The notes below the pieces were generated by a model that ran no database searches, was not told the origin of the DNA, and saw only the letters and a program-made list of their open reading frames with translations. Positions 9,069 through 60,375 of a stretch of DNA of 64,000 nucleotides are shown here, one piece after another (positions within the stretch are counted from its first letter, which is position 1; every line of letters begins with the position of its first letter). Origin of the DNA: Erodium maritimum (lineage: Eukaryota > Streptophyta > Magnoliopsida > Geraniales > Geraniaceae); contig OY997591.1 of assembly GCA_963921825.1 (NCBI GenBank), positions 29,967,825-30,031,824 on the forward strand. Direction: 5' to 3'. A program made the position numbers and the translations under genes.

Positions 9069-10758
9069 TATTATAATACTCTAGCCTATTTTTCTTGCAT
9101 TATACACCAGAGTTGGAAAGGGAGGTCCACGATCCCGGTCGGGCTGAGAAACAGAGCTCCAAGGTCGCAATCAAACCGGTGAAAAATGTTGGGAATGGTT
9201 GTGAGATCTTCTTGTATAATCTTCCCTGGGGGACTTCTGCAGATTGGGTTCGTCATTCTTTGCAGCCTTTCGGTGAAGTGAAGTCAGTTTCAGTCGCAAA
9301 AAGGACAAATCGCAAGGGACGGTATTTATGGTTCGCTGAATTCTCGACCTCGGAAGCGGCTTCTCGGGCAATTGAGACCCTTAATGGCTTCAAGTATAAT
9401 GGGTATCTGCTGTTCGTTGCCTTAGCTTGGCCGAGTTCAGGCGATAAACGTGTTTCAGCACCTGCGACGTCCGACCATGAAAAACAGAGCATGTCTATTT
9501 TGAAACAGAGCATCTCTTCTGGTGTGCTTCCTGAGGCTCTTCTCGCTCCTGGGTTGCAGTCTGAAGATGATGGAGTCTCACCCACGGTGGCGGAAGGTAA
9601 CACGGCAAGGTTTCGCGAGCTCGACACTGTGTCCTCGTCGGAGGTGCTCGGGAGTGGGTCAACGTTGGAGGCGGCGAAACTGCATCCGCATTCACGGGAG
9701 TCTATGATTCGTTTGGATACGCACCTAATTCCCGATAAATCAGGTAGAGATTCGCAGGATCCTGATCAATCTGGTCGCGATTTGCTCGTTGATAATCGCG
9801 AAACTGGCGTGTTTCATGATAAGGTTTCTGTGCCAATTTCGTGTGAGAATTAACCACGACCCAGTTTTGAGGCCCAAGTTGAGGTGATCCAAACTGAGGA
9901 GATGGGCCAACAGATCACAGGTGTTTCAGGCCCAGGTGCTCAGAAGGCAGCCAATGATCCAAGTTTGTTTGACGTTTTTAAACGCATTGGTACAGATTTG
10001 GCTTCAGAATCGAGTGGGCGTGTGGTTTTAAGTTCGTCTAAGGACGGGCCCGTGGCAGGTTTGCAAGCCCAAGAGAAGTATGGGGATAACGGTACCCAGG
10101 TGGAGGTTTTGTGTGATTTCCAAGGTAGTCCTCCATTGTTGGGCCAGACAGTTTCAGTAGTGGACTCGTGTACGAGGGTTGTAGATACTTTTGTGGATCA
10201 CCCATGGAAAGACATCCTTTTGAGTCCAAAAAGTATCCCCGTTGAGGTTCCAAGGAAACGTGGCCGTCCAAAAAAGGACAACCAAAAAAGACTGCTCCCC
10301 CAGTTGTTATCTATCAGACAAGAGCCAAAACAACGTCTGATAAAGGGGGGGCAAGCGGGAAGCCTCACAATCGACATTGCCAAACAAAGTAAAGATGGTG
10401 AGTGAAGCTTTAGTAAGAGAACTGTGAAAAGGGCTGTTGCCAATTCCCCAGTTTCTGAATACCCACAGCGTGTCGAGACTGAGGAGGGCGAGTTTAGCGA
10501 GGACGAGGTTAACCCGGAATGGAGTTCAGGATACTCAACTCCTATTTCAGTTTCTAACCGGTTTCTTAGCTTGACTTCGAACAGGAAGTAGACAAGGAGG
10601 GCGGTGTTCTGTTTAGTGTACCTTCCTGCTTCAGTTTGGTTTTTAGTATTGTTATTTGTTTTTTGTATCGGTTGGGGAAAAAGGTCATTTTAAGGATTGT
10701 TTTTCTTGCATCGCTTTACCTTTTGTAGAACGTTTGCCTAATTTCGCTTATAAAAAAA
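9069..10758 (+). mobile_element. LINE-type retroelement, 5'-truncated, RRM ORF only
   Basis: Flanked by an identical 15-bp duplication ACAAACATTTATTTT (9054-9068 and 10759-10773). It ends in a short A-run after a 3'UTR-like tail. The variable-length duplication plus A-tail indicates target-primed reverse transcription. The insert has no endonuclease or reverse transcriptase, so it was copied in trans or is a truncated derivative. Confidence 0.72.
9095..10591 (+). pseudogene. LINE ORF1-like protein with RRM and AT-hook
   Basis: One continuous frame of about 498 codons broken by TAA at 9851-9853 and TGA at 10403-10405. It finishes at TAG 10589-10591. No ATG opens it, so the 5' end is missing. 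Near the N-terminus lies an RRM with EIFLYNLPWGTSADWVRHSL as RNP2-like strand and KGRYLWFAEFSTSEAA as RNP1-like strand. An AT-hook-like basic motif PRKRGRPKK lies about two thirds along, and the C-terminus is acidic (EEGEFSEDEVNPEW). RRM-bearing ORF1 proteins are known in plant L1 LINEs, and the target duplication supports that origin. A host RNA-binding gene copy is a less likely alternative. Confidence 0.65.
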
Positions 10759-11146: not shown

Positions 11147-12729
11147 GGGTTATTTACGATAAGGTACCCAAATGATTCGTCCACGAACGATAAGGTACCC
11201 TTATGAATTTTTTTACGATAAGGTACCCAAATGATTCGTCCACGAACGATTTGGGTTAATGTTGTTAAAAAACTAATAGACCTACGTGAAAAGACCAATT
11301 TACCCTTTACCATTTTAGTTGACTTTTGACTTAAGTGTAGAAAGACCATTATACCCTCAATTATTATTTTTCTTTAATTTATATTTTCTAATTATTTTAA
11401 AATTTCAAAATAAAATAATTAAATTATATATTTTAAAAAAAATTGAAATTGGTTTTTTATTTTCAAAAATCAGTTTTTATTTTTTTTTAAATCAGATTTT
11501 TATATTTAAAAATCAGTTTTTATTTTTTTAATAATAATTTTTTTTATATTAAAAATTCAGATTTTATATTTAAAATCAGTTTTAATTTTTTGTAAATCAG
11601 ATTTGTTTTATAAATTTAGTTTTATTTATTAATTCTTTAGTTTCTTTATTGTCATCGTGTTCATCCCCATGTTCATCCCCTCCAACCATGTTGATTGTGT
11701 TCATCCCCATGTTCTTTATTGAACCCACAAAACACAAATGAATGAATCAAATCGAACCAAAAACAGATAGAACACACATTTCATATCCATATTACATATT
11801 TCTCAGAAAACGATGATGAGAAATTGAATACCCAGATAGAACACAAATGTATCACATCAAAAACATATCTCGAATCAGCAAATGAATCAAAAAAATTGAA
11901 TAAAGAAATTGAACCCAGATGTATCAATCAGTGAACCTAGGGGAGGACTACGAGGAAGGCGAAGGCCGCGAGACAAGCTCGTATCAGTCCCAAAATTTCG
12001 TGCCTCTTGAGGAAGACGAAGACCGAGGGTCAGATATATGAGGAAGACGACCCAGGACTTGAAGACCGATTTCCTGCCTCGTGAGCATCAGAGTGGGAAG
12101 AGCTTCACCGCCGTGAGCTTGATCTCCTCGCCTTCGAGCCTCGTTCTATGGACTGCTCCCCCTCGTCTCGAGCTCCACAACCTCATCGCTTTCCTTGAAC
12201 TCTTCGTCGTCGCTGGCCTTGCTCTGAACTAATCACCGCCTATCGTGACCTCAACTCGTCGCCGCCTGCCGTGACCTCAACTCGCCGCCTCCCTAAATGA
12301 TGAAGTCGAAATTTTGTGGGGAATAGAAAGAAAGGAACTAGGTTTAGAGAGAAAGAAAGAGGGGCGTGTTTAGAGTTTAATTAGCTTTGGTTTAGTGTTT
12401 AATTGGTTTAGTTTAAGTTTTAATTTTTTATTCTTTTATAATTATTTTCTAAAATTTGTGTTTATTGTTTATTTAGTTTTTTATAAGGGTATAATGGTAA
12501 TTTTCCGTTTAAAATTCTCAAGACTAAATTAGATAAGCGCAAAATCGTCATTTCACTTAACACTTAATTGCACATGTCTAATTTAGAGGTATATTCCGTT
12601 AGTTTTCTAACGGAATATGCCACTTCCATCCGTGGACAAATCATTTGGGTACCAAATTGGACATTTGAAACATATGGGTACCTTATCGTTCGTAGACGAA
12701 ACATTTGGGTACCTTATCGTAAATAACCC
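11147..12729. mobile_element. Non-autonomous Mutator-like TIR element, 9-bp duplication
   Basis: Flanked by identical ATAATATTG copies (11138-11146 and 12730-12738). The inverted ends start GGGTTATTTACGATAAGGTA and share at least 55-60 bp, with a subterminal motif (ACGATAAGGTACCCAAATG) repeated inside the left end. The 9-bp duplication and long TIRs point to the Mutator superfamily. The outer parts are AT-rich, but 11930-12310 is GC-rich with a small ORF (12038-12232), which may be captured host DNA as in Pack-MULEs. No transposase is visible. Confidence 0.8.
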
Positions 12730-12738
12730 ATAATATTG

Positions 12739-13238
12739 AAAAGTAATTGAGGGTATTTTCGTCATTTAACCAAAAAAGACTAACAAAACTCGACAGAAGA
12801 GGATAATCGTTACAAGTGAAACATAAATGTAAGTATTAGTTATAAAAAAACAAGGATACTCATCAGATAATTGTAACAAGTTGAGGATAAGCTATTGTAA
12901 TTTTCCCTTTCTTAATACTTGTCCTCAATTTTGAGAATCCTCATTTAGTTTTCTCATAACATATCAGATTTTGTTCAAACTATTGGGAGTTTTGAAGTTC
13001 ACTGATAACATTATGGAGTCAATAAAGTACAAACTCAAAAGATCTTTATAAGACCATAAATGGCTTCATATAAACTTCATTTAGTTTTGTAATAATTAAG
13101 TGCTATGCATATTTTTTTCCTAAAGATGTCAACTTTTCCTTTAATATACTTATTTTCTCTCTCTAAAGAAATTTAATTTAAATTTGTTTTGCTGATAAAA
13201 AACATAACTTAATCGATTTAACCAAAAATTTATTGATA
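12739..13238. other. AT-rich spacer with a LINE-tail fragment
   Basis: No gene. At about 13160-13200 the sequence TTTGTTTTGCTGATAAAAAA closely matches the 3' end of the LINE-like element at 28372-30236, so a short LINE tail remains here. Confidence 0.5.
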
Positions 13239-13248
13239 TATCAGTCTA

Positions 13249-14332
13249 GAAGAGAAATCAAATAAAAACTCACCTTTAACGTAAAAACTATGTGAACTCA
13301 TCAAAACCATCTATTTCATAAATGGATGGATGAGAAGCAATTTAATTGTTGACTGTAAAAAAACACCACTTTTTGATAAGTTGTAGTGACTTTTTAGTAA
13401 AACTATCACATTATTATTTTTACCAATTCACAAATTTAATCTTTCCCGATTCGTTTTTACTCCGATTGGCTTCAAACTTGCGCCAACATTTTTATTTTTC
13501 AGAGGCTTTCGATCAAGATCAGTCATGAATATATTTCGAATAAAGAAAGAAAAATTGTGGCTGATTTAAAAAAAATATATCTAGGTAATTTTTATCAACA
13601 TTTTACATTAGTTTTATCAACACTTTACACTGGTTTTATCAACCCTGAACGTTAGTTTTATCACCTTATTTACCAAAATTGAACTTGATTTTTATCACCA
13701 CATCACATGTTTTTTATGCACACTGAACACTATATTTATTAACACTAAACACTCGGTTCGTTACTAAATTACATGTGTTTTATCACCCTATCACATGTTT
13801 TTTTATCAATACTAAACTCTAGTTTGTCACTCTTATTACAAAAATTGAACACGATTTTTATCACTTAATCATGTGTTTTTTATCACCTCAGTACATGTAT
13901 TTTTATCAACATTTAGCACTAATTTGATCACCCCGATATAAAACATTTATTAGTGAATATTTATCAATACTCGACATTATTTTTATCACCCCGATATATC
14001 CTTTTATTTTCGTGCTTCAAAATATATTCAATATGCTACTTGATAGATAGCCCTTGAAAAAAAAAATATATTAGCGCAAGTTTGAAGCTAATCAGAGTTC
14101 AAACGAATCGGAAATGATTAAATTAGTTAACTGGTCAAGAAAAAATGCACACTTGTCGACATGGCACCATGCTATTCCAATTATGCCCTTGCTTGTGTGA
14201 GAAAGGATGAAACGGACGTGTATTTTTGGTGATTATGTGGCATCATGGTGAATGTTAGATCTTAGGTGTGTGTGGCTAAGATTGGTTCTTACAGTTTTTA
14301 GGATAATAGGAGTTTCTATTATATTTTTCCTC
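13249..14332. mobile_element. Non-autonomous Mutator-like element, 10-bp duplication
   Basis: Flanks are TATCAGTCTA (13239-13248) and TATAAGTCTA (14333-14342), a 10-bp duplication with one mismatch. The ends are GAAGAGAAATCAAATAAAAA at the left and the complement of GAGGAAAAATATAATAG at the right. They align with the ends of the element at 52982-56353, of which this is a second, shorter copy in the opposite orientation. The interior holds many imperfect units of the type TTTTATCAACACTTTACACTGG. No coding potential. Confidence 0.78.
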
Positions 14333-14514
14333 TATAAGTCTAATTACACATCAATCACAAAAAAAATCCAAACAGAAGTGGCGAATGCAGCACATGGTTT
14401 CTACAACTATTAATCCAACTACATTTTGATTGACTGTCAATAATCTATAAAACAAATTCATTTTTGTAGACAAATGCATGTAATAAATGCAAACATTTCA
14501 AAATAAGGAAGCAT

Positions 14515-17462
14515 TGTAAGAACCACTCCCGGTCAACGCTAGTCAAAGCGGCGAAAAACAGGAAAATTTAAAATTTTGGGACATACATTTAAATGAACCT
14601 AAATTTGACCCCGAGGGTCATATCGGACTTAAGTTAACCCCGATATCGATCAAAGTGAGTTCTGGGGGACTCAGGGCAACTTTTTGACCAATTTGGGAAA
14701 GGTTGACTTTTTGCTGGAAAAGTCAACCGAGCGACGTTTTGGTCCGTTCGAGGTCCATTTTGGATCCAAAAAGCTTATCCGTCGTTACAGCGGTCTTAGT
14801 TGGGCCGTTTCCTTGTAGCCCGTGAAGTTTCATAACTTCTTGGAAAATGGGCCCGTTCGGGGCCCGAGACAGCCGAATTTCGCGAATCTGACAGAAAAAT
14901 ATCTACAAGATATTTTGTTTAAAGGGTGGGACCCACTTGCCACATGTCACACAAGTGGTGGTGTTAGGTAATTTTGAACAAAACAAAAGGAAGACCATGT
15001 GGGTAGGTTCGGCCATATTGAAAAAGAAAAAGAAAAATAGAGAGAGAAAGAAGAGAGAAGAAGGAGAGAAGGAAAAGGAAGAAAAGGAGAAAAAGGTTTA
15101 GGGTTTGGGGATTTTCCCGACGATCCAACCGGCGGATCGTCTCAACGATCGAAGAATCGAGCTCCCATCGTCATTCCCTACGGTGAGAACCTATTCGATT
15201 TTCGTTTTGGTACGTTTGAAAGTTAGGGTTTGAGTTTAAACGAGTTATATATGGGTGAGTAGAGGTGTATGGTTCTTTGATGGCGTTTTGGGGCGAAGAA
15301 TGACCGGATTCCGGTGACCGGAGGCTCGGGGGAGCTCCGACCACCGTGGGTGGTGGCTGGCCGGAGCTAGGACCGGCCACCACTGTGGTGAACCGGTCCA
15401 AAACCGGTCAAGCCACCCACGAGTGTTGATGGCCGGGTGGGGCCCACATGTCGGGTCTCGGGTTTTTCTTGTTCGGGTGGTTTAGGACGATCCCCAAGTC
15501 GTTAATTCACACCTGGAACGAATTATGGAATTAAATTGTGAAAGTTGGAAATTTCGGGTTTAGAAACTTTAAACGCGAATTAAATTGCTCGGAAGTCGGA
15601 AATTGATTCCGTCGATTACATTGGAACCCTTGAATTGTTCTAAGATCGTAGAAACGAAAACGGGAATTTTCGGAGCCCCGGAAGGGCGTTTCCCAATCCC
15701 GGGCAGGTTCGCCGGGCCGGGCGAATCGGGACTTTCCGGGCCCGTTGTTGACAATGTCGAGTAATTGGGAAGTTTGGGAGTGATCGACATTGTCGGGGTT
15801 GCGTTTGGGCGTCTAATTCTTTAAATTCAGTTTTTGCCTGCGAACTTAAAAAGTGTTTTATTTGTGATCTTGTTAGATCGTACCGACTACCGCGGAAAGG
15901 GGAAGCTAGGCGAGTGATCGCGAGCACGCCGGAGCTTGGTCGTGGACTTTTGGGAAAGCGTTACGAGGTAGGGAAAAGTAGCCGGATCTCGGCATTGACT
16001 AGGGAAAGTTAACAGTAGAAATGCATGTGACACCTAGTGGTGTCGTAGGATGAGTAAGTTTATCGAACACTAGAAATGCAGGCGACACTTAGTGGTGTCG
16101 TATGATACGTGAGCGTATCGAACAATAGAAATTCATGTGACACTTAGTAGTGTCGTAGGATAAGTGATCTTATCGAACAATGGAAATACTGGTGGCATTT
16201 GGTTGTGCCCGGAGGTTGATTGAATCGTTTGTGTTTGTGGGTTGCCATGAGTGTCGTTGGGGTGTTGAACCCGTATTTACTGTTGGTGTGTCGTGGGTGT
16301 CCATGAGTGCCGTTGGGGTGTTGAACCCGTATATTACTGTTGGTGTGTCGTGGGTGGCCATGAGTGTCGTTGGGGTGTTGAACCTGTATATTACTGTTGG
16401 TGTGTCGTGGGTGGCCATGAGTGTCATTGGGGTGTTGAACCCGTATGTTACTGTTGGTGTGTCATGGGTGGCCATGAGTGCCGTTGGGGTGTTGAACCCG
16501 TATATTACTGTTGGTGTGTCGTGGGTGGCCATGTGTGCCCGTGGGGAGTTAAACCTGTATTGTTGTGGACTATCCTGCCGAGGGGTAGTGAGTCGTATAT
16601 CTTTGTCGCTATTTGTTGAACCTTGAGTGTTGACTGTGATTGCATGGAGGTTGAGGCCCGCCTGACGATAAAGGGGTCCTGTGGTCGCGTGCGTGGGGGT
16701 TGGCTAGCCTTACGACTAACCATAGGTAAAGTTGTGCATTTCTTCGGCGATGAAGGGCGGCTCCCCTTCCGACTAGCTATCGGAAAAGTATCGCTGTATA
16801 TATCGCTAACAGGTCGACCGCCTGGCCCGACTGCGTTCGGGGAAAGTTGCGTGGGGCAGGCTCAAGCCCAACCGGTTAGCAACCGGCACTGAGTAGCTGG
16901 AGTGCGATCCTTTGTGATCTTGTTTGTTGTGTGCGATCCTTTGTGATCTTGGGTGTTGCGTGGTTATTATTTGCGTTTTGGGGTTGAGGTCGTAACCGCT
17001 GTGTCGGGTCTACATTACGCGTCCGGGTTTGAGTTTGTTGGGGAAAGTAACAGTTTTCGTGTGACAGTCGGGTCATTTGAGTTTGGGGATAGTAGTCCCC
17101 GGTGTTTTGTTGGTTGTTGGTGTTTCCGGCATTTCTTCTAGTATGCCGTAGTCAGTCTGGTATCCGTGGTGGTGAGCGAACGCTCACCCCTAGCTGCTTT
17201 TCCTACAGGTACTGGTCGCGAGACGGACTAGGGGATCTCTCGAAGCTTGAAGAGCTGGGAGCGGGAGTCCGGGTTTTTGGGAGTCTAGCGACGTACGCTT
17301 TGGTTTTTGTCCGCTTGTTTTGGACGTATTTTAAGTTGTAAAATATTATTTTGATTAACTCAAAGTGGTGATTTTAAGCGGTTTATTAAAATGTTTGAAA
17401 ATTGTTTTATTGTTTCACCGTTCGCGTTCCGGGTTCGGTTCTACTGAATTTGGGGCGTGACT
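14515..17462 (+). mobile_element. Solo LTR (B), Gypsy-type, opposite orientation
   Basis: Starts TGTAAGAACCACTCCCGG and ends TTGGGGCGTGACT, the reverse complement of the LTR at 34639-38002. It is flanked by a perfect 5-bp duplication AGCAT (14510-14514 and 17463-17467). Length is 2948 bp. The last base of the right end is mutated from the usual TG...CA pair. A purine-rich tract (15020-15100) and a 57-bp minisatellite lie inside. The ORFs overlapping the minisatellite are artefacts of the repeat. Confidence 0.9.
16240..16560 (+). repeat. 57-bp minisatellite in solo LTR B
   Basis: Five to six tandem copies of a 57-bp unit (GTGGGTGGCCATGAGTG... GTTGAACCCGTATATTACTG...). Because 57 is a multiple of 3, the repeats keep reading frames open and translate into 19-residue repeats on both strands. 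This is not evidence of a gene. Confidence 0.9.
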
Positions 17463-17467
17463 AGCAT

Positions 17468-17579
17468 CATTGAGAACTCATTTTGCTATGAATAACAATA
17501 AATACTTCATCGCCATATTCACAACCAAGTATGTTGAAATCGAAAGACGCAAAAAAGAGTCTAAAAAAATGAACTAGGT
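17468..17579. other. Short spacer
   Basis: AT-rich sequence between solo LTR B and the LINE-like remains. Nothing recognised. Confidence 0.4.
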
Positions 17580-19770
17580 CACCAAAAGACATTTCTCCCT
17601 TTCCTCTCATTTCGTCTCTCTACCCTAACATATGTCGCTGCCCATTATGGCCAACACACCGCTACAACCGCCCACCACCATGACCACCTTTACCCTATCG
17701 TTACCGGAACACCCTCTCATCGGTGCATGCCTAGCACCAGGAGGAGGCTCCGCCATGGGGTTTCGACAAGAAACACTACCGCCGCCCACCACTGTGGCCA
17801 TCTCCTCCCTCTTGCCGCTGCCCACCACCGTGGTCATCTCCTCTCTCTCGCTCTCGGATCAATCATCACAGGGAGCGATCTCAACCCCCCACCGTCCTCC
17901 AATGCCCTAAACAACCAGTACTCTTTCGTGGTCGAACCTCCAGTTCCCATATGCAAGGCCAGACCAGGCCACCACTCTCCCGCGAGATCCTCCAAGGCAA
18001 CCGATTGTGATGGAGTCGACCATTACCACCGCGCTCGTTCCAGGATCTAATCGAGTGCCCCGTCTCATCCTTGGCTCTTCTTCGGGGTCCCAGACGCTAA
18101 TACCTGATTGGGAAGATAAGGACGATGTCTTGGAGATCCCAATCGAAGCCATCCCTGCAACGGCCGATGGCTGTTATCGTTTCTCGTTGGCTAGAAAACT
18201 GGTCGGGGAAGGCACATTCAATGTCAAATCCCTATGTGGGGTTATGATTAGCAACTGGCGAGTACAAGGTTTGGAGTTGATCCACTACCGCTATGGAGTT
18301 GATCCGGCACCGGGGACCATGGGGCTTTGGAGGGTACCCTCTGATTTTAGTCCAGCTCCAGCCATGCATGCAGCCGAGCTCTATCCCTTTCCGGTTTATG
18401 AAAATCGGGGTGAGAGCTACAAATATCCCCGGGGATGCACGAAATGCACCAGTCAGAGCCATTCTCGTTAACGCTATCGGAACTAAGGTAACCTCTGTGC
18501 CTATCCCTGCCCAACGACGTTTGGATGATTATTTGTGGATGCGAGTTAGGATTGATGTGGACAGGCCACTGAGAAGACGTATCAACCTCCGGTTTCAGGG
18601 TCACCTGAATTCCTCCATGGCGGGCCTACAATATGAGAGGATCTCGGGGTTTTGCACTCGGAGTGGTCGGCTCACCCATCGGATTGAGGAATGCACGAGC
18701 CACATGCTGAAAATTGGTTGCGAGGAGATTGGATATGACGACTCCATTTGGGTCCCTATGGGTTTTAATGTTGACAGTCTTCTACAAACGACATAACAGG
18801 CACCGGTGGTGAGGTCGGGGCCTTCAGTGAATGATCTACTCACCTCGCTTTCCCTGGACCCGATCGATGATTATGTGGGAGGCTTGGGAAGTTCGGATCG
18901 GGCTCGGCCAAGACAACCTTAATGCCCCCCACCTTCCGAGTCTTGGACAAGTAATGGGACTCACCTCGGCGGCGATTTGGCTAAGGAGAGTTCGGAGTGG
19001 GTAGCTCCAAAGATGAAAGGAGATCACCCCGGATCGTTAACTTAGGTCTAGGATAGCACGAAGCCCGGCGATTTGACTAACATGGTTTTGGGTGAGGAAC
19101 CTGTGTTCTTTGTTGTACCTGCAAGTGGGATAGCGTCTGGTCATGGGAAGCAGAAGGAACCTTAAGACCAGGTTGGAGGAGTGGGTCCCATCTGAACAAA
19201 AATGATGAAGGCAAAAGCAAGTGGAAGGCGGGGAAATTCTATTACCGAACCAACCAGATGAAAAAGGCGCTGGAAATTACGGGAACTACCCCATCAACCC
19301 ATCAGTTGAGGGATGAGGACGAGGAAGACGGCTAACAAACGAGTGCCCAACAGCTGCCTCGCAAGGATCCATGAGAACCCTGGGTGGGGAGGGGTGGGGG
19401 GTGGGGTGTCCCTAAGGGGGGCTATCCTTAGAGACCCAGGGCGTCGGGTGCTGGGACGTCTCGGGAAGCCAGCAAGAACAACCCAACAACATTTACTGTT
19501 TTATTTTATTTGTGTTTGTCATTTGGAGTACTCTACATTGGAGTTATTTTGTATTAGGTTGAATAATTTTGAAGTTGTGGTAGGAAATCGTCCTCAGTTA
19601 GTGTCTACAATGAAAACAAGTCTATTTTGTACAGGCACGAAAGCCGGATCACCTACGGGAGACTCGGACAATATTCTGGTGCCTAAGGCATTGGCCCTAC
19701 TTTGTAACCTCTGATTTACATTAACAGACGCTTATGTTTGTCGTTTAAAAAAAATAATAATCAAAAGGCG
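17580..19770 (+). mobile_element. LINE remnant (ORF1 region and 3' tail)
   Basis: GC-rich ORF1-like coding DNA followed by a 3'UTR-like stretch ending in GTTTAAAAAAAATAATAAT at about 19745-19763, the usual form of a plant LINE tail. No endonuclease or reverse transcriptase domain lies between, so the central part has been lost or was never copied. I could not find a convincing target duplication. Confidence 0.6.
18007..18796 (+). pseudogene. LINE ORF1 pseudogene (DUF4283 and zinc knuckle)
   Basis: Two overlapping frames (18007-18471 and 18293-18796) together give a plant LINE ORF1. The N-terminal part is FSLARKLVGEGTFNVKSL followed by GPWGFGGYPLILVQLQP, characteristic of DUF4283. Then comes NAIGTKVTSV...RRLDDYLWMRVRIDVDRPLR. 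Last is a zinc-knuckle-like segment YERISGFCTRSGRLTHRIEE, where the second cysteine of the usual CxxC is replaced by S. The frame switch near 18300-18470 shows at least one frameshift. Confidence 0.68.
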
Positions 19771-19894
19771 CAAGCAAACAAACAAATCTCCAAATGCATG
19801 AAGCTAGCTGCTAGATTACCATCATTTCTGATCATGAATTACATACGATATGACTGTAATACTCATCAATTTCTACCCACACAATGGATTCAGC

Positions 19895-20230
19895 TTTGGA
19901 GGAAGCCTTCAAGACTAAGGCCCGGAAGAGACGGTCCAAATTCAATTCAGTTGCTCCTCCAAATGTCCCTCGGACTCATAATATCAAGTCCAAGACTCAG
20001 GCTCTCAAACTCAAGGCCCCCAGCGATCCAATCTTGTCTTCGGATAGTGAGTGGTATAAAGGGTGTCGGTTTTTGGTTTGTTTGTTTTAGGCCTTGTTTT
20101 GTTTCTTTTATATTAAGGGTCATCTCCATGTTTCTTCTTTCAATTGTAATTGTGGGTTTGTGTTATTGGCTTTCTCCCCCTCGGAGATCGACTTTTCAAT
20201 AAATTTTGTAGCACTTGTCCAAAAAAAAAA
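19895..20230 (+). mobile_element. Short LINE-like 3' fragment with A-tail
   Basis: Contains a small ORF (MDSALEEAFKTKARKRR...) followed by a T-rich 3' end and a run of ten A at 20221-20230. The flanks ACAATGGATTCAGCTTT (about 19881) and ACAACGGATTCAACTTT (about 20230) are similar and may be a diverged target duplication. If so, it landed at the end of the PWWP-like tail copy that follows. Confidence 0.4.
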
Positions 20231-20513
20231 CAACGGATTCAACTTTTCATCCAAAATCTAACCTGGTGCATAGTATTTTCTCATTTACAAAGATGGAAAG
20301 GGAAAGGGACATGGGAAGCTAAACTCTTTCTTGAAGTTGCATCGACAAACACAAAACAGGACATTTGCTTGACACAAAAAGATCATCCTCCTCTCAGCAT
20401 ATTGGTAAATCACGGCATCAATGTGGTTGCTGATATAGGGAGAACCTTTTGTGTTTAAAGGATCTACTGAACCAAACAGCATACTAACATAAGACGCATC
20501 GTGTTCATAAACT
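20231..20513 (-). pseudogene. Degenerate copy of the PWWP gene's 3' coding end
   Basis: Minus-strand sequence matching the last exon of the PWWP gene (roughly 22626-22990). For example FGSVDPLNTKGSPY corresponds to FGVVDPLNTKVSPY, and HIDAVIYQYAERR to HIDAVTAYQYAKMK. It has frameshifts and small deletions. Homology appears to start already at about 20525, inside the last codons of the Ulp1-like gene, and runs to the end of the parent coding sequence. It is a partial, diverged duplicate about 2.1 kb downstream of its source. Confidence 0.8.
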
Positions 20514-22214
20514 TCATGTGAGGATGGTTGTGTTCACTTTGTTCACATCCGACAGCAACATGTCTAGAAGCAATTGTTTTCTCATTTGAAACCTCACCTT
20601 GATAAAGTCTTCTGCTAAATGGTTTGCATCCCCATCGTACAATTTCATGAAGTTAATTACGTATGGTCCACAATCCCATCTGTCAAGTTTGAAGAAATGG
20701 TATGTACAAAATAGATAAGTAGACATAATATATTAAGAACAGCAAGTATAAAAAGTTCAGTTAGACATACATGTTAGGCTGCACTGGCACTGGTGGGTAT
20801 ACAATTTTCCATTTCTTAAATCCACACAGTATATCTTGTGGTGGATTTTCAGATGATGCCATAACCAATTCTCCTAGTATCTCAACCTGTAATGTCAATA
20901 AAAAAAATAGAGCAAACTGTTAATTGATGGCATTTTAGATACCATGTGAATTTGGTACATTAAATTGTGTTATTACCTCCCTCCTGACAAACCGATCAAA
21001 ATGCACACGCTTCTGTGGACATCCTGGCTCAGGCTTGTAATAATTAGGAATACTGTTCAACACCTCAACCCTTTTTGCGCGTATGTTTAAGCATATTAAA
21101 AACCAATGTTTGTATAACAACACTGGATGGAAAACCTTATTCCAAACATGCATAAAATTTGTGTTAGAACATTTATGGGTAGTTTTAAATATCACCATTC
21201 ATCTAATTCAGTGTCATTGATTCATGGAGGATGTTTACCATATCACAGTTGTGTAGGCTGAAGCCAATGAGATAGTCCTTAAACCAGTTTTTTTCAACGT
21301 GGTTGATGTCCCATTTCATCCCTAGCATGTCTTTGGACTTTGAGATTGGTATATCCAGCTCCGATGCCACAATCTCCAGCATATTACAATAAATCAGCTA
21401 TTAATAGTCAGAGATAAAATTGAAAATACAAAAACATACAAGGGAGAATGGAATAAATGTCATACACCGAGCTGTGGAGGAAAGGCCCATTTCCTCTGGT
21501 CATGTTTGAAAAGAGAATTGTTCAACCAAGCGCACGCATACCGCATCAACTACTCACATAGTATTCAACATTACAAATAGTAAGTCAAACTAATAAACTG
21601 GACTTGAAAGGAAACATCTATGCCTCACATAATGCACAATTTACCATGCTACAGATCCATCCTTGTGCACATGCCATTGTAGCTGCTGTATCACCAAATA
21701 TAATTGATCTGGTATCAAATTGTGCTAACTTTTTATTGCTGCATTACAGATAAAGACATTTAATAATTCAAAAAGAAAAAAAAAATGAAGTGTTCATGTA
21801 TAATGTGATCCAGACATCTTACTTAGGAACCTTTTGCACCCAATCCCAGACTCTGTTTTCAACCTGAGTAAAGTTACGAGTCTTATCCTTAGGTTTTGTT
21901 TTCTGAAGTTGTATTAGGGGCGGTGAGACAGTTGATTTCTGGGACTGGTGGCTATCAGATTGTGTAAATGGTTTCTGACTCGTGTGCTGTTGGAGAGCAA
22001 ATTTGTTACCTCGATACTGGGGTGCTGCTTCATCACTGTGTAATGGCACCTCCTCATTGTGTTCCTTTGCTAGAGCCTCACTGGTCTCAGCTCTCACAAC
22101 CTCTAACAGAGCCTCAAACATCAAGGATTTTTCTGGCGATGAAGCCTGGCTTGTACATGCCTTCCTCTTCTGGGTGGCCTCGGGCTTCACTCCTCTCTTA
22201 CTGGGTACAGGCTC
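20514..22214 (-). CDS. Ulp1-like cysteine protease (C48), seven exons seen, 5' end missing
   Basis: Ulp1/SENP-type peptidases cleave SUMO or related precursors and conjugates; many plant members are carried by Mutator-like elements (family knowledge). Exons read on the minus strand: 22214-21823, 21738-21645, 21549-21466, 21373-21239, 21135-20977, 20886-20771, 20679-20514. All have GT and AG borders and stay in frame for 381 residues to TGA. The protease core has VFHPVLLYKHWFLICLNI (catalytic His), then EVLNSIP where the usual Asp is Asn, and IWDCGPYVINFMK (catalytic Cys). The N-terminal 130 residues are low-complexity. No ATG opens the first exon, so at least one upstream exon is missing or unrecognised. 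The last codons run into PWWP-gene-like DNA. It may be a transposon-derived gene or a recent pseudogene. Confidence 0.68.
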
Positions 22215-22625
22215 CTGTATTTGTCAAGTTCAATAATAGCCGCATACAGCAACATCTCTTAGTCCCTAAATATCTAGCATGGTACTAACATTGGGGTGCC
22301 TTATATAGTAGCTAAATTGGATTCTTTGTACAAATTCATGACTAAATTGGAACCTTTGATAGTACTAGGGCATAATCGGAGTAATTTACAAAAGTTCGGG
22401 AATAAAATAGAGCATTTGATAGTACATGGATACAATTGGCACATTTGAAATAATGATGAGACTTTTGGAACATTTACCGAAACAAAGATGTATAAAATCC
22501 ACATGCAGATACAGACAGCTAATTGCTAGCTTAGCATCAATTCTGGTGATGACATAAACAAGAATACATGTAATACCAATCAGTTTCCATACCCACTAAA
22601 TTGTTGAAAGCAACAATGAACAGAT
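22215..22625. other. Spacer between the Ulp1-like and PWWP genes
   Basis: AT-rich, with two short similar stretches around the motif TTTGATAGTAC (about 22356 and 22416). It must hold the 3'UTR of the PWWP gene and possibly the missing first exon of the Ulp1-like gene. I cannot identify either. Confidence 0.4.
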
Positions 22626-25087
22626 TCAGCTTTTCATCCTAAACTTCACCCTGTGAGTTATCTTCTCATTTTCGACAGGGGAACTTGATCTCTTGAGACA
22701 TGATTTCAAAGGTGAAGAAGACAAGGGGCATAGAAAGTTAACCTCTTTCTTGCAATTGAACGGATCCAGCGAAAAACGAACATTTTCTTGAGCTAGAAAG
22801 ACCTTCTTCATCTTTGCATATTGGTAAGCAGTTACCGCATCAATGTGGTGTAAAAACACCACTTTAGCAGCACCTGTATATGGAGAAACTTTTGTGTTCA
22901 AAGGATCTACTACACCAAATAAACTGAACTTTTTTATCAACTCCTCCTTGGATGGCAGATAATAACCCTTTGGGAATTTCATGTGCAATATGGTAGAATC
23001 TTCATGTTCAGGTACTTTTGGTCGCTGATCTAGCTGTGAGTTCGATGATAAGTCAGCAGTAATTGGTCGGTGGGACTTCATGTTCAATTCTTTGTTATCA
23101 GTAATGGAAGTAGGACAATCACCATTTCTGGACTGAACCTTGCACTGATCAATGTTAAGATGAGGTGACAGCAGATGTTTCGTGGCCGCCACATCGACAC
23201 TACCAACTTTTTCAATGACGGCATCATTTCCAATCACATTTTTTAGTTGTAATTCAGAAGCAAAAGGTTGCACCAAACTGGATTTACAATCAACTTTTGC
23301 ATCCGCACTCCAAACCCCCTTTGTACTTGGGGGAACATCAACATCAGACTTGCACATCCCTATATCTTGTAAACTGACATCTTGAACGTTGACCATATTG
23401 ACAAAATCTATGAAGGTTGTTCCATCAACAATATCAACACTTTTTCTATGTTCCCTAAAGTTACCTATCTCAACAGTACTTCTGCAAAGAGATGTGTATT
23501 TTAGAAGAGGAACATCAAGCAATGCCAGAGACCCAGAGGAGAAAGCATCAAATATAAATATCTTATCTGTATTGTTCTGCAGATAAGCATAGGCTCTACT
23601 TAATGAGAAAAAGGGTTTAGTCTTGCGCAACTTAAAACAATGATGGACAGGATCAGGTTGCTCAGCCTGCCGCTTTAACTGCAAACAACTGACCTCACCC
23701 CCATGCAAGGGTGTCAAGGGCTCTCTTGTGATTGTTCTATCGGTAATGCAATCTGTACCCACTTGCTCACAAATTACCTGAGGCTCATCTCCCAATGTGT
23801 CTTCTTCTTCAGAAACTGAACCACACCATAAGATAAATTACAAACTCAACTACATATAATCAGCTCTGAAGAAAATCAAATAAATTATAAAAATGTAATG
23901 CCAGTGTAGGATATGACATGTTGCTCTGAGGCCCTTATTTTCAAGAAGGATAATTTTATAGTGAAGAACCCATCATGGTAAGAGGACTTCTGATTGAAAC
24001 ATACCCTTCAAAAGTCATCTACCCCGATTACACCCATGCATTATGATATAGATAAAGCTGATTATCTGGATGTCATTTTCAAGCTAATTTGTTCCGCGTA
24101 TCACTACCCTATGAATTACGTAAGAACATACAAAAGCACAGCTTAGTTGCAAGGAACTAAACAATCAAGTATCAAACAGAAGAGGAAGCCAATTACTCCA
24201 TTTGTCATTGATGGACATTGTAGTTCTCTTCACAAAACATATCGGGCATAATCTACAAAATCACAGTCAAAATGAACAAAATTCTCTATCTTAGCTCCTT
24301 AGATGATACCAAGCAAGCACGTATTAGTTAGTGATTAATAAGAAGAAACTACTTTCAAATTCCACTCCAACCTCAGTTCCTTTTTTTCAAATCCAATCTT
24401 CTGGTGACTAAACAAACTATTACAGTTACCAAAAGAGAGTTTTCGAAAGCATGAAATAATTATTACTAACAAATTACCAATAATGACGATGAAACTGTTG
24501 AACTCAAAACCCCAAATAATAAAATCAGATAGAGAAGTACACGTACTTGGCACAGCATCTTCTTCTCGGTACATCAATTTCTGCTTCATCGAAGCGTATA
24601 CTCGAAATCTCTTGATCACCGCCGAGGCAGTAATTGCAATAACCAGATCCTCGTCCTCAATCCAGGGCGAGGCAGCCGCATCAAGCATAAACCCTAATGT
24701 ATCCTCCGGCAGGAACCCATTAGCCTCCTCGAGAACCTGCCCTAGACAATTCCACCCAACATCCGCCAGATTCTCCGCCTTGGAGTACATCTCCGGCGGT
24801 TCAAAGCAAGGGCACGTCAAGCTCAGACCAGCCCTCCGACCCAGCAAAACCAGGGCCCGATTGAGCGTCTCGTCACAGGGGGTGTCGCGATTCACGGTGC
24901 CGATAAGGGATGGGAAGCTGGGGGCGAAGGAACGCACTTCCGATTCGAGAAAATAGCGCGGCGGCGGATGGGAATGGAAGAAGGAAACGAGGACTCCGAA
25001 GGGGTCGATCCTGAGAACGAGAGCAGGCCACCATGAATGGGGGTACAGAGCTCGAGCCCACACAATATCTCCTCTTCTGAAACCCAT
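22626..25087 (-). CDS. PWWP-domain protein (PDP-like), two exons
   Basis: Nuclear chromatin-reader family. Plant PDP proteins use PWWP to bind histones or DNA and act in histone-modifying complexes (family knowledge). Exon 1 is 25087-24547 and exon 2 is 23815-22626. The intron has donor GTACGT and acceptor TTCAG and is 731 bp. The product is 576 residues. PWWP lies at about residues 5-65 (MGFRRGDIVWARALYPHSWW). A second conserved block at about 455-540 (MKFPKGYYLPSKEELIKKF ... VVFLHHIDAVTAYQYA) resembles the RRM-like C-terminal domain of PDP proteins. The middle is poorly conserved and hydrophilic. The start at 25087 was chosen because PWWP begins directly after it; an in-frame upstream ATG at 25255 exists. 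A Copia element begins 298 bp upstream, so promoter and 5'UTR space is limited. Confidence 0.82.
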
Positions 25088-25384
25088 CTCCAACAGCTCC
25101 TTCTTCTTCTTCACAGACGATTTGTTTTCTTCTGCTTGAATGGAAATGAAATATACCATAGTTTCGCTCCATTTCCTAGGATGTGGAAAAAGGTAAAATA
25201 CTTTCGTCGAAAAGCTTTCCCGCCAATATTTACAAATGTTCCCGAGTGCATTCATAGATTGAATCCGTTTATTTTATGTCCAATTGGACTGAATTTTATA
25301 TATGAGGGGACTGACCTGTTTTGGTCTCCACAGTAAAAATAATAGACGGGTTCGTTCAAAGAATAAATCAAATAAAAATCATTT
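25088..25384 (-). promoter_or_regulatory. Probable 5'UTR and promoter of the PWWP gene
   Basis: The 297 bp between the PWWP start codon and the Copia LTR. A TATA-like CATATATAAA lies on the minus strand near 25300. If that is the real core promoter, everything farther upstream is Copia LTR sequence. Confidence 0.4.
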
Positions 25385-54289: not shown

Positions 54290-56296
54290 GAGCACCCACA
54301 GTCGTGGGCGAGAAGCAGCTGGCGAGGAGATGTCGCCGGCGAGGAGGAGGCGGGGAGCAGGCGAGGAGGAGGCGAGGAGCTCGCTGGCGAGATGCGCTGG
54401 CTATGTTCTTCTCGCTGGCAGCTCACGCCGGGGAGATGAGGGGGTTATCTCCAAAAAATCTTTGTTGTCCAATAAAAAGGCTTAGTGTCAATGCTATTTG
54501 TTTTGAAAAATAAACCCCACCTATATTATCCAAAAAATATATACACGTTCAATCGAATAACCTTGATCATCGTTTTTTATGTTAAAAAACGCTCACCATA
54601 ACTACAACATTTATGTTAAACCTACCCTAAAACCTTATATAAACCCACCCTCACAAACTAAAATTCACAAACTCTCTACTATTCATCCTTCTCATAAAGT
54701 ATCGTCCCGACCCTTATCCTTCTTTGTCCGTCATCATGGAATTCGATCCTGAGGATATGGAATTCGATTCTATTTTGAATGACATGCTCGAAGACTGTCA
54801 GTCAACCGAGGAGATGTTGGACGACGCTTTGGTGGATTCTCCACCACGGAAGCGCAAATACACTCGACGTGACCGGGTAGTCGCAAACGAACGGTTAATG
54901 AATGACTACTTCAACACCAACCCTGTGTACACCGAGGTGCAGTTTCGGCGTCGGTTTAGAATGCCAAAGTCGGTGTTCCTCCGTATAGTTCATGCATTGG
55001 AGCAGCACGACGATTACTTCAAGGAAAGGTTAGATGCATTAGGTCAAGTTTCATTATCTCCTTATCAGAATTGTACTGCCGCCATTAGACAGTTATGTTA
55101 CGGAATTACAGCTGATGCGTTGGACGAGTATGTGAAGATAGGGGAAACAACGTCTTTGGAATGTTTGCGAACATTTTGCAGTGCACTGAATAAAGTCTTT
55201 GGTGCTACATACCGGCGGAAGCCTACACAAGCTGATATGGACCACATTTTGGCGGTTAATGAAGCGCGGTGATTCCCGGGCATGCTTGGAAGTCTTGACT
55301 GCATGCACTAGGAGTGGAAGAACTGCCCAAAGGCCCTTCGAGGAGCACATTCCCAAAGGGACCACGGTAATCGACCAACCGTTATACTTGAGGCGGTTGC
55401 AACTCGTGACTTATGGATTTGGAACTCTTTCTTCGGCATGGCGGGGTCGAAAAACGATTTGACTGTCCTGAACCATTCGAAGCTGTTCGCGGACGTTGTC
55501 AACGGTTGGCAACCATCGGTTGCTTACACGATAAATGGTAATAATTACACGCTTCCTTATTATCTTGATGACGGTATTTACCCTTCGTTGCCAGTGTTCG
55601 TAAAAACAATTCCATTACCGTCAACGCCGAAGCAGAAGAAGTATGCTGAAGTCCAAGAAGCGTGCAGGAAGGATGTGGAACGAGCTTTCGGCGTACTACA
55701 AGCTCGGTTTCACATTATCAAACAACCGAGCCGCTTGTGGGCTCCCAAGTCAATCGGTTTGGTCATGAATGCGTGCATTATACTGCACAATATGATAGTT
55801 GAGGCTGAACGTCATACATTCGACGGGTATCGTGAACAAACAGAAGAAGGTAGTCCAAGTCAACCACACATTGCACGAGGAGGCTTCGTCCCGACCAATG
55901 TCATAATTGGAAACACTGAGAGGATGCAAAATGAACGTATGCATTACCGTTTGAAGGACGATCTTGTCGAACATCTCTGGAATAAATTTGGAGACGCCTA
56001 GGTGTTAGTTTCCTATATTCGGTGTTAGTTTATTTTTATCTGTGTTGTTTCCTTTATTCGGTGTTAGTTTCTTTTTATCTGTGTTGTTTCTTTTATTCGG
56101 TGTTAGTTATCAATATTTGTTGTTTTTCCATTTAAAATCTATTTTTACATAAAAAATACATTAAAAAAATCAAATTTCTTACATCTCGCCGGCGCCTCCC
56201 CGCCAGCCCACTGCAGAACTCGCTGGCGGTGAGCTGATTAAAAAACAATTCTTTAAACCATCTCGCCGGCTGCCGGCGAGATGATTGTGGATGCTC
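54290..56296 (+). mobile_element. PIF/Harbinger DNA transposon, nearly intact
   Basis: TIRs GAGCACCCACAGTCGTGG and, at the right, GATTGTGGATGCTC. A perfect TTA duplication (54287-54289 and 56297-56299) flanks it. Length is 2007 bp. It carries one transposase gene and subterminal GGCGAGGAG/GCCGGCGAG motifs at both sides. No second Myb-like ORF. Confidence 0.93.
54736..56001 (+). pseudogene. Harbinger transposase (DDE_Tnp_4), two nonsense codons
   Basis: Cuts and pastes the element; the family recognises TTA/TAA targets. A single frame of 421 residues from ATG 54736 to TAG 55999-56001 is broken only by TGA 55270-55272 (in EAR*FPGML) and TAG 55309-55311 (in CMH*EWKNC, a one-base change from TGG). 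N-terminal charged region, then QFRRRFRMPKSVFLRIVHAL. Catalytic positions are LGSLDCMH (D), SKNDLTVLNHS (D) and CRKDVERAFGVLQARF (E). All three acidic residues are kept, unlike in the copy at 3679-8209. Codons upstream of ATG are also open (from TTG 54724), but the ATG fits better. Confidence 0.9.
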
Positions 56297-58301: not shown

Positions 58302-60308
58302 TCAACCAAAATAACCTCGGCACTTTGATGACCCACACAAGCATCTCCGTCTCCCATGGACTGCACCATTACCCTCTGCTTCAGCAGAGCTAATTCCATA
58401 ATCATAAGTCAACTCTGTCAATGGAGGAATGTGCCTCATTGCAAAAAATGCAATATGAAGAAAGGACTCATTGTTGTGTTCATAAATGATTGGCTGCCAG
58501 AAAACATTTGGTGAGCAACTATGATTCATAAACCGAGCTACATTACCAACATTTTTGGCATTTATGATGAGGGGGGATGGTATTTCATAATCCTCATCAG
58601 CGTCCCCAAAATTCTCCTCAAAATTCTCCTCGTCCAGCAATTCAGGTTTGTAATTCCACTTGAACGGATTATAACTACGGGAAGTATCAAAAATATACTC
58701 ATTCATTTCATTCTCCCTTGCCCTAGGTTTGTCCACAACTTCACCTGCATATTCACAAATAAAAGTACCAGCACGAATAGGATCCCATGAACGCAGCCCC
58801 CAGCCCCTATCATTTGTTTTAAACACTTCGAAATGTGCTCTCAAACCAGTCTGGGAGACTCGGTTTTTGCAGTTAGGAAAGCACGGGCATGATGGACCAC
58901 ATTCATATATCATTGGCTTCCGGCTGACAAGAATCCCATTGGATGTGTATGGAAAACCACCTCCATTTTTTTGGATGCATGTGCAGTTGGGATCACCAGG
59001 TTGGCACGCTTTTTTGCAGTTGCAGCCCAAAGAATGATCTGTTAATCCGTAAGATTTAGTGTACTTGAGCACAGGACTATAAGTGAAAGTATAAGGTCCT
59101 TTATCACCATCAACATCGTTTACAAGTGAAACAGGCATCCTTTCACCACCTGAAGTCAGGTCTGGACGTATTTGTCCTTCCCTTGAAGAGAAGCCATCCC
59201 TCCACCTTTGAATGGATTTCCAGACCGAGAAGGCACCAGGCTGCCCTGGTAGCCTGACCAACTTGTACTTAAATATGTTGCAGCCTGACTTTGCTTTCTC
59301 CATCCATGACTCACGTATTGTATAAAGACCATCATACACATAGACCTTTGATGATGGATTTATAGAATCCTTCACACCTCGGATTACTCTGACCTCATTT
59401 GCTCGGTGCAAACTTCTTTCCAGAGCAAGATTGCCCCTTTCTAATTTCTGATCAGCTGCTACCTTATTATCTTTCTTGTTGGCCATCCCACCCTGGCCAC
59501 TATATATTAGAACATCAGTATCCTCTGCCTCATCCTCATATCCTCCGGAAGAAACAATGCTCAAAGCCACCGGTTCTTCTTGAAAATCACCCTTGAGAAC
59601 CATGTAGTCGATACCACCCATGGACTGAGCATGCAATCCCACCGCACATAACTCCATCCGGAAAAAGTATATGTCCCCAACCTCAACACCGGGGACTATA
59701 CCGACTCTCTTCTTCATGTTTGTCCGATACCCTTTGGTCAATAAAATATTTCCAGCTTTCAAATCTGAACGCTTACTTAGTGCAGAGTGTTCTTCAAGCT
59801 GGGCAATCCTTCGCCTGAGAGCGTCAAATGTCATTTGTACATCAACAACAGTTTCCCTATCACCATCATCTTTCAGTGCTGTACTAATTCCAACGGCGTA
59901 CATCGAGCTAGAGCTTTTCCGCCCGTTGATAGATGATGTTGTCACTTGTGCTTTCCTTGACCTCTTTCTTGCTGAAATGGAGACACCAAACTGGGCGTCC
60001 GCAGACGACTCTGTATCCCCATTAGATGCTCCAGAATAACTAATGGGCACTGCAACTGTTGGGGTTCTAAATGAGCGAAGGGGAGCAGGCATAGGCGCTC
60101 GTGGGGTTTGTGTTGGGTTTGGCTCAGGCGATGGAAATCCTTGAGGTCCACTGAATGGGTAAAATGGGGCGTACCCAGAAGGAAATGGACCAGAAGGAGG
60201 TGCACATACGGTTGAAGAAGGAGCCTGAGGAGTGCTTGGGAATATAGGTACCAAACTGCGCAATGGTTTCACATCCAAGACCCTGGACTTATCAAAACCT
60301 CCTTCCAT
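58302..60308 (-). CDS. SUVH1/SUVH3-type SRA-SET domain protein
   Basis: Nuclear SU(VAR)3-9 homologue. The SRA domain binds methylated cytosine and the SET domain is of the H3K9 methyltransferase class. Arabidopsis SUVH1 and SUVH3 act as methyl-DNA readers that support expression (family knowledge). Uninterrupted 668-residue ORF, close to the family's length of about 670. N-terminus is MEGGFDKSRVLDVKPLRSLV plus a proline-rich region (25-80) and basic RKRSRK (114-119). SRA is at about 200-355 (VGIVPGVEVGDIYFFRMELC). Pre-SET cysteines are at 425-485. SET is at 490-640 with RGWGLRS, NHSCSPN (595-601) and TYDYG. The post-SET motif is CLCGSSKC (656-663). ATG 60308 was preferred to 60344 because the conserved N-terminus begins there. 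A 5'UTR intron precedes it. Confidence 0.92.
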   Translation of the reverse strand: MEGGFDKSRVLDVKPLRSLVPIFPSTPQAPSSTVCAPPSGPFPSGYAPFYPFSGPQGFPSPEPNPTQTPRAPMPAPLRSFRTPTVAVPISYSGASNGDTESSADAQFGVSISARKRSRKAQVTTSSINGRKSSSSMYAVGISTALKDDGDRETVVDVQMTFDALRRRIAQLEEHSALSKRSDLKAGNILLTKGYRTNMKKRVGIVPGVEVGDIYFFRMELCAVGLHAQSMGGIDYMVLKGDFQEEPVALSIVSSGGYEDEAEDTDVLIYSGQGGMANKKDNKVAADQKLERGNLALERSLHRANEVRVIRGVKDSINPSSKVYVYDGLYTIRESWMEKAKSGCNIFKYKLVRLPGQPGAFSVWKSIQRWRDGFSSREGQIRPDLTSGGERMPVSLVNDVDGDKGPYTFTYSPVLKYTKSYGLTDHSLGCNCKKACQPGDPNCTCIQKNGGGFPYTSNGILVSRKPMIYECGPSCPCFPNCKNRVSQTGLRAHFEVFKTNDRGWGLRSWDPIRAGTFICEYAGEVVDKPRARENEMNEYIFDTSRSYNPFKWNYKPELLDEENFEENFGDADEDYEIPSPLIINAKNVGNVARFMNHSCSPNVFWQPIIYEHNNESFLHIAFFAMRHIPPLTELTYDYGISSAEAEGNGAVHGRRRCLCGSSKCRGYFG

Positions 60309-60375
60309 CACAACCAAAAATACACAGCAAAACCAAATTCCCAACTTTTACCAACTTGTGCTACTCTGGGATTTT

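Follow-up and report, generated by a model that had tools for sequence, protein, structure and literature searches.

A degenerate copy of a PWWP-type gene end lies behind a conserved Ulp1-like gene in Erodium maritimum

Partial tandem gene duplications that leave pseudogene tails are of a common kind. Among peptidases of family C48, which includes Ulp1/SENP and, in plants, the ULP and Kaonashi ULP-like proteins, Asp is the usual residue at the third catalytic position. ULP1 domains are also described in MULE and CACTA transposable elements (PMC13317346, PMC2528002, PMC6117577). The locus considered here has features in common with all three groups; a search of the literature at the level of titles and the first lines of abstracts returned no description of it.

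The window is a stretch of 64,000 nucleotides, C4:29967825-30031824, and the genome searched comprises 763 Mb. On its minus strand, the window contains, in this order, a PWWP-type gene, a spacer of ~410 bp, a gene for a C48-type peptidase, a copy of the PWWP gene tail, and a LINE-like fragment (Table 1). The tail copy is a decayed duplicate, separate from a low-copy C48 gene that most probably retains its native end; it looks like the product of an old local duplication, perhaps a tandem one of ~2.4 kb on which transposon insertions later encroached.

Table 1. Positions of the features discussed, numbered from the first letter of the window
Feature	Position	Strand	Evidence
Parent PWWP-type gene with two exons (25087 to ~24548, ~23819 to 22626) and an open frame of 576 aa when spliced by hand	22626..25087	-	ORFs, splice context
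Peptidase_C48 (Ulp1-like) gene, 7 exons	20514..22214	-	Splice sites, open frame, Pfam PF02902 (1.9e-11), paralogue introns
Exons of the C48 gene	22214-21823, 21738-21645, 21549-21466, 21397-21239, 21135-20977, 20886-20771, 20679-20514 (including TGA)	-	
34-bp gap separating the C48 stop from the start of PWWP homology	20480..20513	-	Pair-HMM, shuffle tests
Decayed duplicate of the PWWP gene end, from LFGxVDPLNTK to past the stop, internally deleted and prematurely terminated	20231..20479	-	BLASTN 1.65e-15, tblastn 3.2e-10
Retroposon-like insert, poly(A)-ended, splitting the PWWP copy	19895..20230	+	Sequence; class suggested by the poly(A) end and the flanking duplication
Copy of the PWWP downstream flank (parent 22506-22601), the rest of the duplicated segment	19791..19885	-	Score 37; 69/94 columns identical
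LINE-like fragment adjoining the copy end (approximate limits)	17500..19760	+	zf-CCHC_4 2e-7, DUF4283 3.1e-5

Elsewhere, the window encodes a transposase ORF (54643-56001), presumably of the Harbinger kind, with Plant_tran (PF04827, 1.2e-69) and DDE_Tnp_4 (2.6e-8) matches in 55312-56001, and an intact histone methyltransferase ORF with SAD_SRA, Pre-SET, and SET domains (58302-60347), which we take to be of the SUVH type. At 9077-10405, an RRM-domain ORF (PF00076, 1.6e-10) precedes another ORF that matches the AT-hook weakly and below the cutoff.

The C48 gene was described in the sequence-only reading as an in-frame Ulp1-type gene of seven exons, and this description is borne out. All six introns are of the GT-AG type, 389 codons are open before the TGA stop (20516-20514), and residues 237 to 355 match the Peptidase_C48 profile with 44.7 bits, above the cutoff of 20.7, which places the protein in this family. 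When these exons are simulated with a first-order Markov model, they contain 21.7 stops on average, and none of 5,000 is stop-free. The gene model is incomplete at the 5' end, with exon 1 beginning at an acceptor site; the upstream stretch that was read contains no in-frame ATG and no recognizable start exon. The first in-frame Met sits within exon 1 (...KSLMFEALL), so that the 5' end of the model is provisional.

The spliced protein contains the motifs KHW, VQPN, and DCG, which provide, in this order, the His, Gln, and Cys residues of the active site and which we take to be the catalytic motifs of C48. Like other members of the family, it shows this order of residues and the PF02902 match, as well as a weak alignment with the last helix of yeast Ulp1: in a sequence search of the PDB, Ulp1 (1euv) is the only match (E = 0.18), with residues 321 to 379 of the query aligned to residues 163 to 218 of the 221-residue chain. 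Unlike the usual C48 peptidases, it has Asn (VLNS, encoded at 21063-21052), not Asp, at the third catalytic position, which was assigned by motif and not by structure; this Asn is found at all three loci compared, the one in the window and two on C1. The predicted membership in the C48 fold rests on the profile match, despite the replacement of Asp by Asn. If active, the protein would have a papain-like Cys-His-Asn set. In all likelihood, it would be either a cysteine protease of the SUMO/NEDD8 type or a relative without catalytic activity.

Genome searches, in which all copy counts are lower bounds, indicate that this gene has few relatives. The 1751-bp DNA query has its own locus as the sole match listed, and the N-terminal protein query finds the same locus alone among 17 scored candidates. 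The catalytic part yields at least 13 matches from 14 scored candidates: 5 are the gene's own exons, 6 belong to a pair of loci on C1, at 147.79 and 154.54 Mb, and the remaining two, on C3 (E = 0.28) and C7 (E = 0.51), are weak. By reading, each of the six introns of the window gene has a counterpart at the matching place in the paralogue at C1:147.79 Mb (L021). Over 251 codons compared with L021, ps is 0.827 and pn is 0.370, with 110, 81, and 157 differences at the three codon positions; over 260 codons compared with the second C1 locus (L022), the values are 0.775 and 0.417. All these values are approximate, as some aligned columns, mainly those of L022, cross introns. The ratio of ps to pn against the paralogue suggests that the gene looks to be under constraint. 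If it is as old as the duplication, a neutral copy, simulated with substitutions only at 0.164 per site, stays stop-free in 0/1000 runs. We read it as a conserved Ulp1-like gene that is spliced, is present in few copies, and has a C terminus of its own.

Upstream of the C48 paralogue, L021 contains an ORF with an NLP GAF domain (1051-1773; PF22922, 3.3e-15) and, just before the paralogue and on the same strand, a BED zinc-finger ORF (2323-2880; PF02892, 9.3e-6). The alignment of L021 and L022 passes over most of the BED ORF, and the BED and C48 domains of L021 are possibly parts of one gene.

The parent of the tail copy is only tentatively a PWWP protein by profile (17.3 bits, below the cutoff of 25.6; E = 0.0068). 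Two BLASTN matches connect the copy with it, 20285-20476 against 22704-22919 (67.7% identity; 1.65e-15) and 20232-20286 against 22619-22671 (76.4%; 4e-4). At the protein level, homology begins at the LFG codons (20479), with a score reached by 0/300 shuffles, and the frame differs from that of C48. The copy is more similar to the local parent (55%) than are the other two genome hits, distant PWWP-tail relatives on C7 (37%) and C9 (34%). That a remnant of the PWWP 3' end follows the C48 gene as a pseudogene had been proposed from the sequence, and this part stands; the proposed extent was too short, however, and the copied flank has to be added. This flank scores 37 against the parent, whereas 974 pieces taken at random from the window reach at most 15. 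The copy thus spans 20479 to ~19791, past the parent stop into the downstream flank, and represents ~420 bp of the parent, including the last ~220 bp of coding sequence. It is interrupted by the retroposon-like insert, whose flanks, CAATGGATTCAGC (19882-19894) and CAACGGATTCAAC (20231-20243), form a 13-bp target-site-like duplication with 11/13 bases in agreement. A retrocopy of the PWWP transcript is unlikely because the copy runs ~120 bp past the parent stop and its end carries no plus-strand T-run.

The upper edge of the copy is abrupt. Extension upward from its core, anchored there, gives scores of 0 (equaled in 300/300 shuffles), 0.9 (156/300), and, under a gap-cheap scoring, a marginal 35.5 (13/300). 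A forward pair-HMM, started at 20479/22922 with six parameter sets and with simulated homologues as positive controls, gives log-odds of 0.87 to 1.43 beyond 20479; values as good are obtained in 94 to 97 of 150 shuffles and in 95 to 101 of 144 real window pieces, whereas only 0 to 2 of 60 homologues simulated under the same parameters score that low. As the pair-HMM and two of the three anchored scorings are at background past 20479, the duplication edge is placed at about this position, 34 bp after the TGA. These 34 bp have no significant match to the PWWP gene or to the 3' flank of the paralogue; for 20537-20484, 413/1000 shuffles match the latter flank as well.

The arrangement is consistent with a single tandem duplication of 22922-20480 (2443 bp), with breakpoints just behind the C48 stop and, at the LFG codons (22922), within the last PWWP exon. 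This would have produced the order PWWP-C48-[PWWP tail-spacer-C48], and the second C48 copy would later have been lost where the LINE-like and LTR-like elements now sit. Such an event would account in a single step for the abrupt join as well as for the gene order. In its favor, the copy keeps the tail-then-flank order of the parent, and divergence is similar in the flank (69/94 columns identical with free gaps; K = 0.328), the 3' end (42/54; 0.264), and the coding tail (148/194; 0.285). As in partial tandem duplications, the locus has a degenerate 3' fragment, a collinear copy of exon and flank that points the same way as the parent and lies no more than 2.4 kb from it; unlike them, it lacks the second copy of the intervening gene and has transposon-like sequence in its place. 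Neither the window, where the other matches have E values no better than 0.13, nor the rest of C4 (14 candidates scored) shows a second C48 copy, and the tandem model therefore requires that this copy was lost later, a step that has left no direct trace. No significant match continues the copy in 12500-13500, 13500-14510, or 17440-17560, beyond the LINE-like and LTR-like stretches.

The missing C48 copy would also fit a variant, not exclusive of the above and held more tentatively, in which only the 3' end of the PWWP gene was copied to the site behind the C48 gene, by template switching or as filler DNA in break repair, with no 2.4-kb duplication. The copied stretch, just ~420 bp of the parent, accords with this variant, but the preserved order of tail and flank speaks against it, as does the proximity of the copy end to the A-run of the LINE-like fragment (~30 bp), because of which the true lower edge of the copy is hidden. 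In this fragment, the zf-CCHC_4 match is above the cutoff and the DUF4283 match is below it, a pair that we take to indicate a LINE; its A-run lies near 19747. By reading, an LTR-like stretch lies beyond. Within that stretch, 16237-16560 consists of 5.7 copies of a 57-bp tandem repeat (92% matches) that is open on both strands.

The tail shows signs of constraint, which count against the main reading. Its 58 sure codons (128/174 bases identical) have a Ks of 0.84, a Ka of 0.23, and a pn/ps ratio of 0.39; in neutral simulations, the mean ratio is 1.09, none of 300 runs is as low, and 374/2000 are stop-free. With 11 doubtful codons added (69 in total), Ks is 0.96, Ka is 0.32, and pn/ps is 0.48, against a neutral mean of 1.03, with 0/1000 runs as low and a stop-free fraction of 0.089. 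Past function or constraint of the copy is possible. The copy may also be neutral, since the ratio could fall towards roughly one half through selection acting only on the parent. The tail Ks (0.84 to 0.96) exceeds the flank K (0.33), which is awkward for a single age, although silent sites are few. The tail would be a relic without a coding role, at most lying within the C48 3' untranslated region. It is improbable that the PWWP 3' end became the 3' untranslated region or terminator of C48 and supplied up to six of its last codons, which would have given two neighbors of unrelated function related 3' ends. None of six poly(A) signal hexamers is found on the minus strand in 20514-20200.

A chimeric protein is very improbable. 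The sequence-only reading held that the last codons of C48 resemble the final PWWP exon and that a chimeric junction gave the protease a new C terminus; the last ~6 to 10 codons and the TGA would then come from the HMKF region of that exon. Short matches (TGAACA, ACCAT, and CACATGAA) do occur in the same order, and the gap-cheap scoring (matched by 13/300 shuffles) extends the alignment to 20545/23010; under the other scorings and in the pair-HMM, the similarity is at background. The pairing of AACTTCATGTG with AATTTCATGTG, the local match for 20514-20530, is reached by 107/1000 shuffles against 22920-23100, a chance level; against the whole last PWWP exon, a different match is best and is reached by 163/1000. 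The alternative in-frame alignment further upstream, PSSHEV/PSKEEL, is also background. PWWP homology starts after the stop, and the C48 coding sequence is thus not joined from two parents.

The paralogue L021 ends in ...DMLLSPVNKIY and the window protein in ...DMLLSDVNKVNTTILT; residues 337 to 383 of the latter match the paralogue at 61.7%. The two share the C-terminal helix up to VNK, the VNK(V/I) motif ending six residues before the C terminus, and the paralogue stops two codons later. This shared helix is also what aligns weakly with the last helix of yeast Ulp1. The paralogue lacks a match solely for the final six residues, NTTILT, a point in favor of the chimera. The 8-kb stretches around L021 and L022 show no PWWP homology at E values of 1 or less. 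Since a paralogue without PWWP homology in its 8 kb shares the C terminus up to VNK, the end of the catalytic domain is native, and so, on this comparison, is the predicted C48 end, except at most for the last six residues. A chimeric protein is not supported by these alignments. Both observations that had been named in advance as contrary to it, no alignment at 20500-20530 and the same C terminus in the absence of PWWP, are essentially what is found, with the gap-cheap scoring and NTTILT as exceptions. Of the proposal of a local duplication beside the Ulp1-like gene, the duplication is upheld and the chimeric junction is not.

Least probable of all, by a little, is the suggestion of capture, in which a MULE/Kaonashi-type or CACTA-type transposon bearing the C48 domain picked up the PWWP fragment: elements of the Kaonashi/VANDAL and CACTA-ULP types do carry this domain, as described in the papers cited above, and two weak inverted pairs (I1 and I6, out of nine in 18500-25200) bracket the C48 gene, but capture is not supported because the bracketing pairs are short (25 nt at 76% and 18 nt at 78% complementarity) and the C48 loci are few, with matching introns. 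One pair has its arms in a PWWP intron and the LINE-like stretch, the other in the PWWP exon and the copied flank; MULEs without terminal inverted repeats would escape this test. Among the scored candidates, there are, besides two weak matches, two further C48 loci with purifying-type divergence, and no set of near-identical copies is seen, these counts being lower bounds. In contrast to the Kaonashi/VANDAL and CACTA-ULP transposons, the locus has no convincing terminal repeats and few copies, and no transposase is recognized, by reading, among ORFs of at least 150 aa near the C48 gene.

We thus see here a duplication relic of an ordinary sort, next to a C48-like gene that is conserved. A pseudogene tail close behind a gene can pass for a fusion, and the comparison corrects what is likely an annotation trap. 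If the relic does form the 3' end of the C48 transcript, the locus would be a small example of the recycling of gene ends by duplication.
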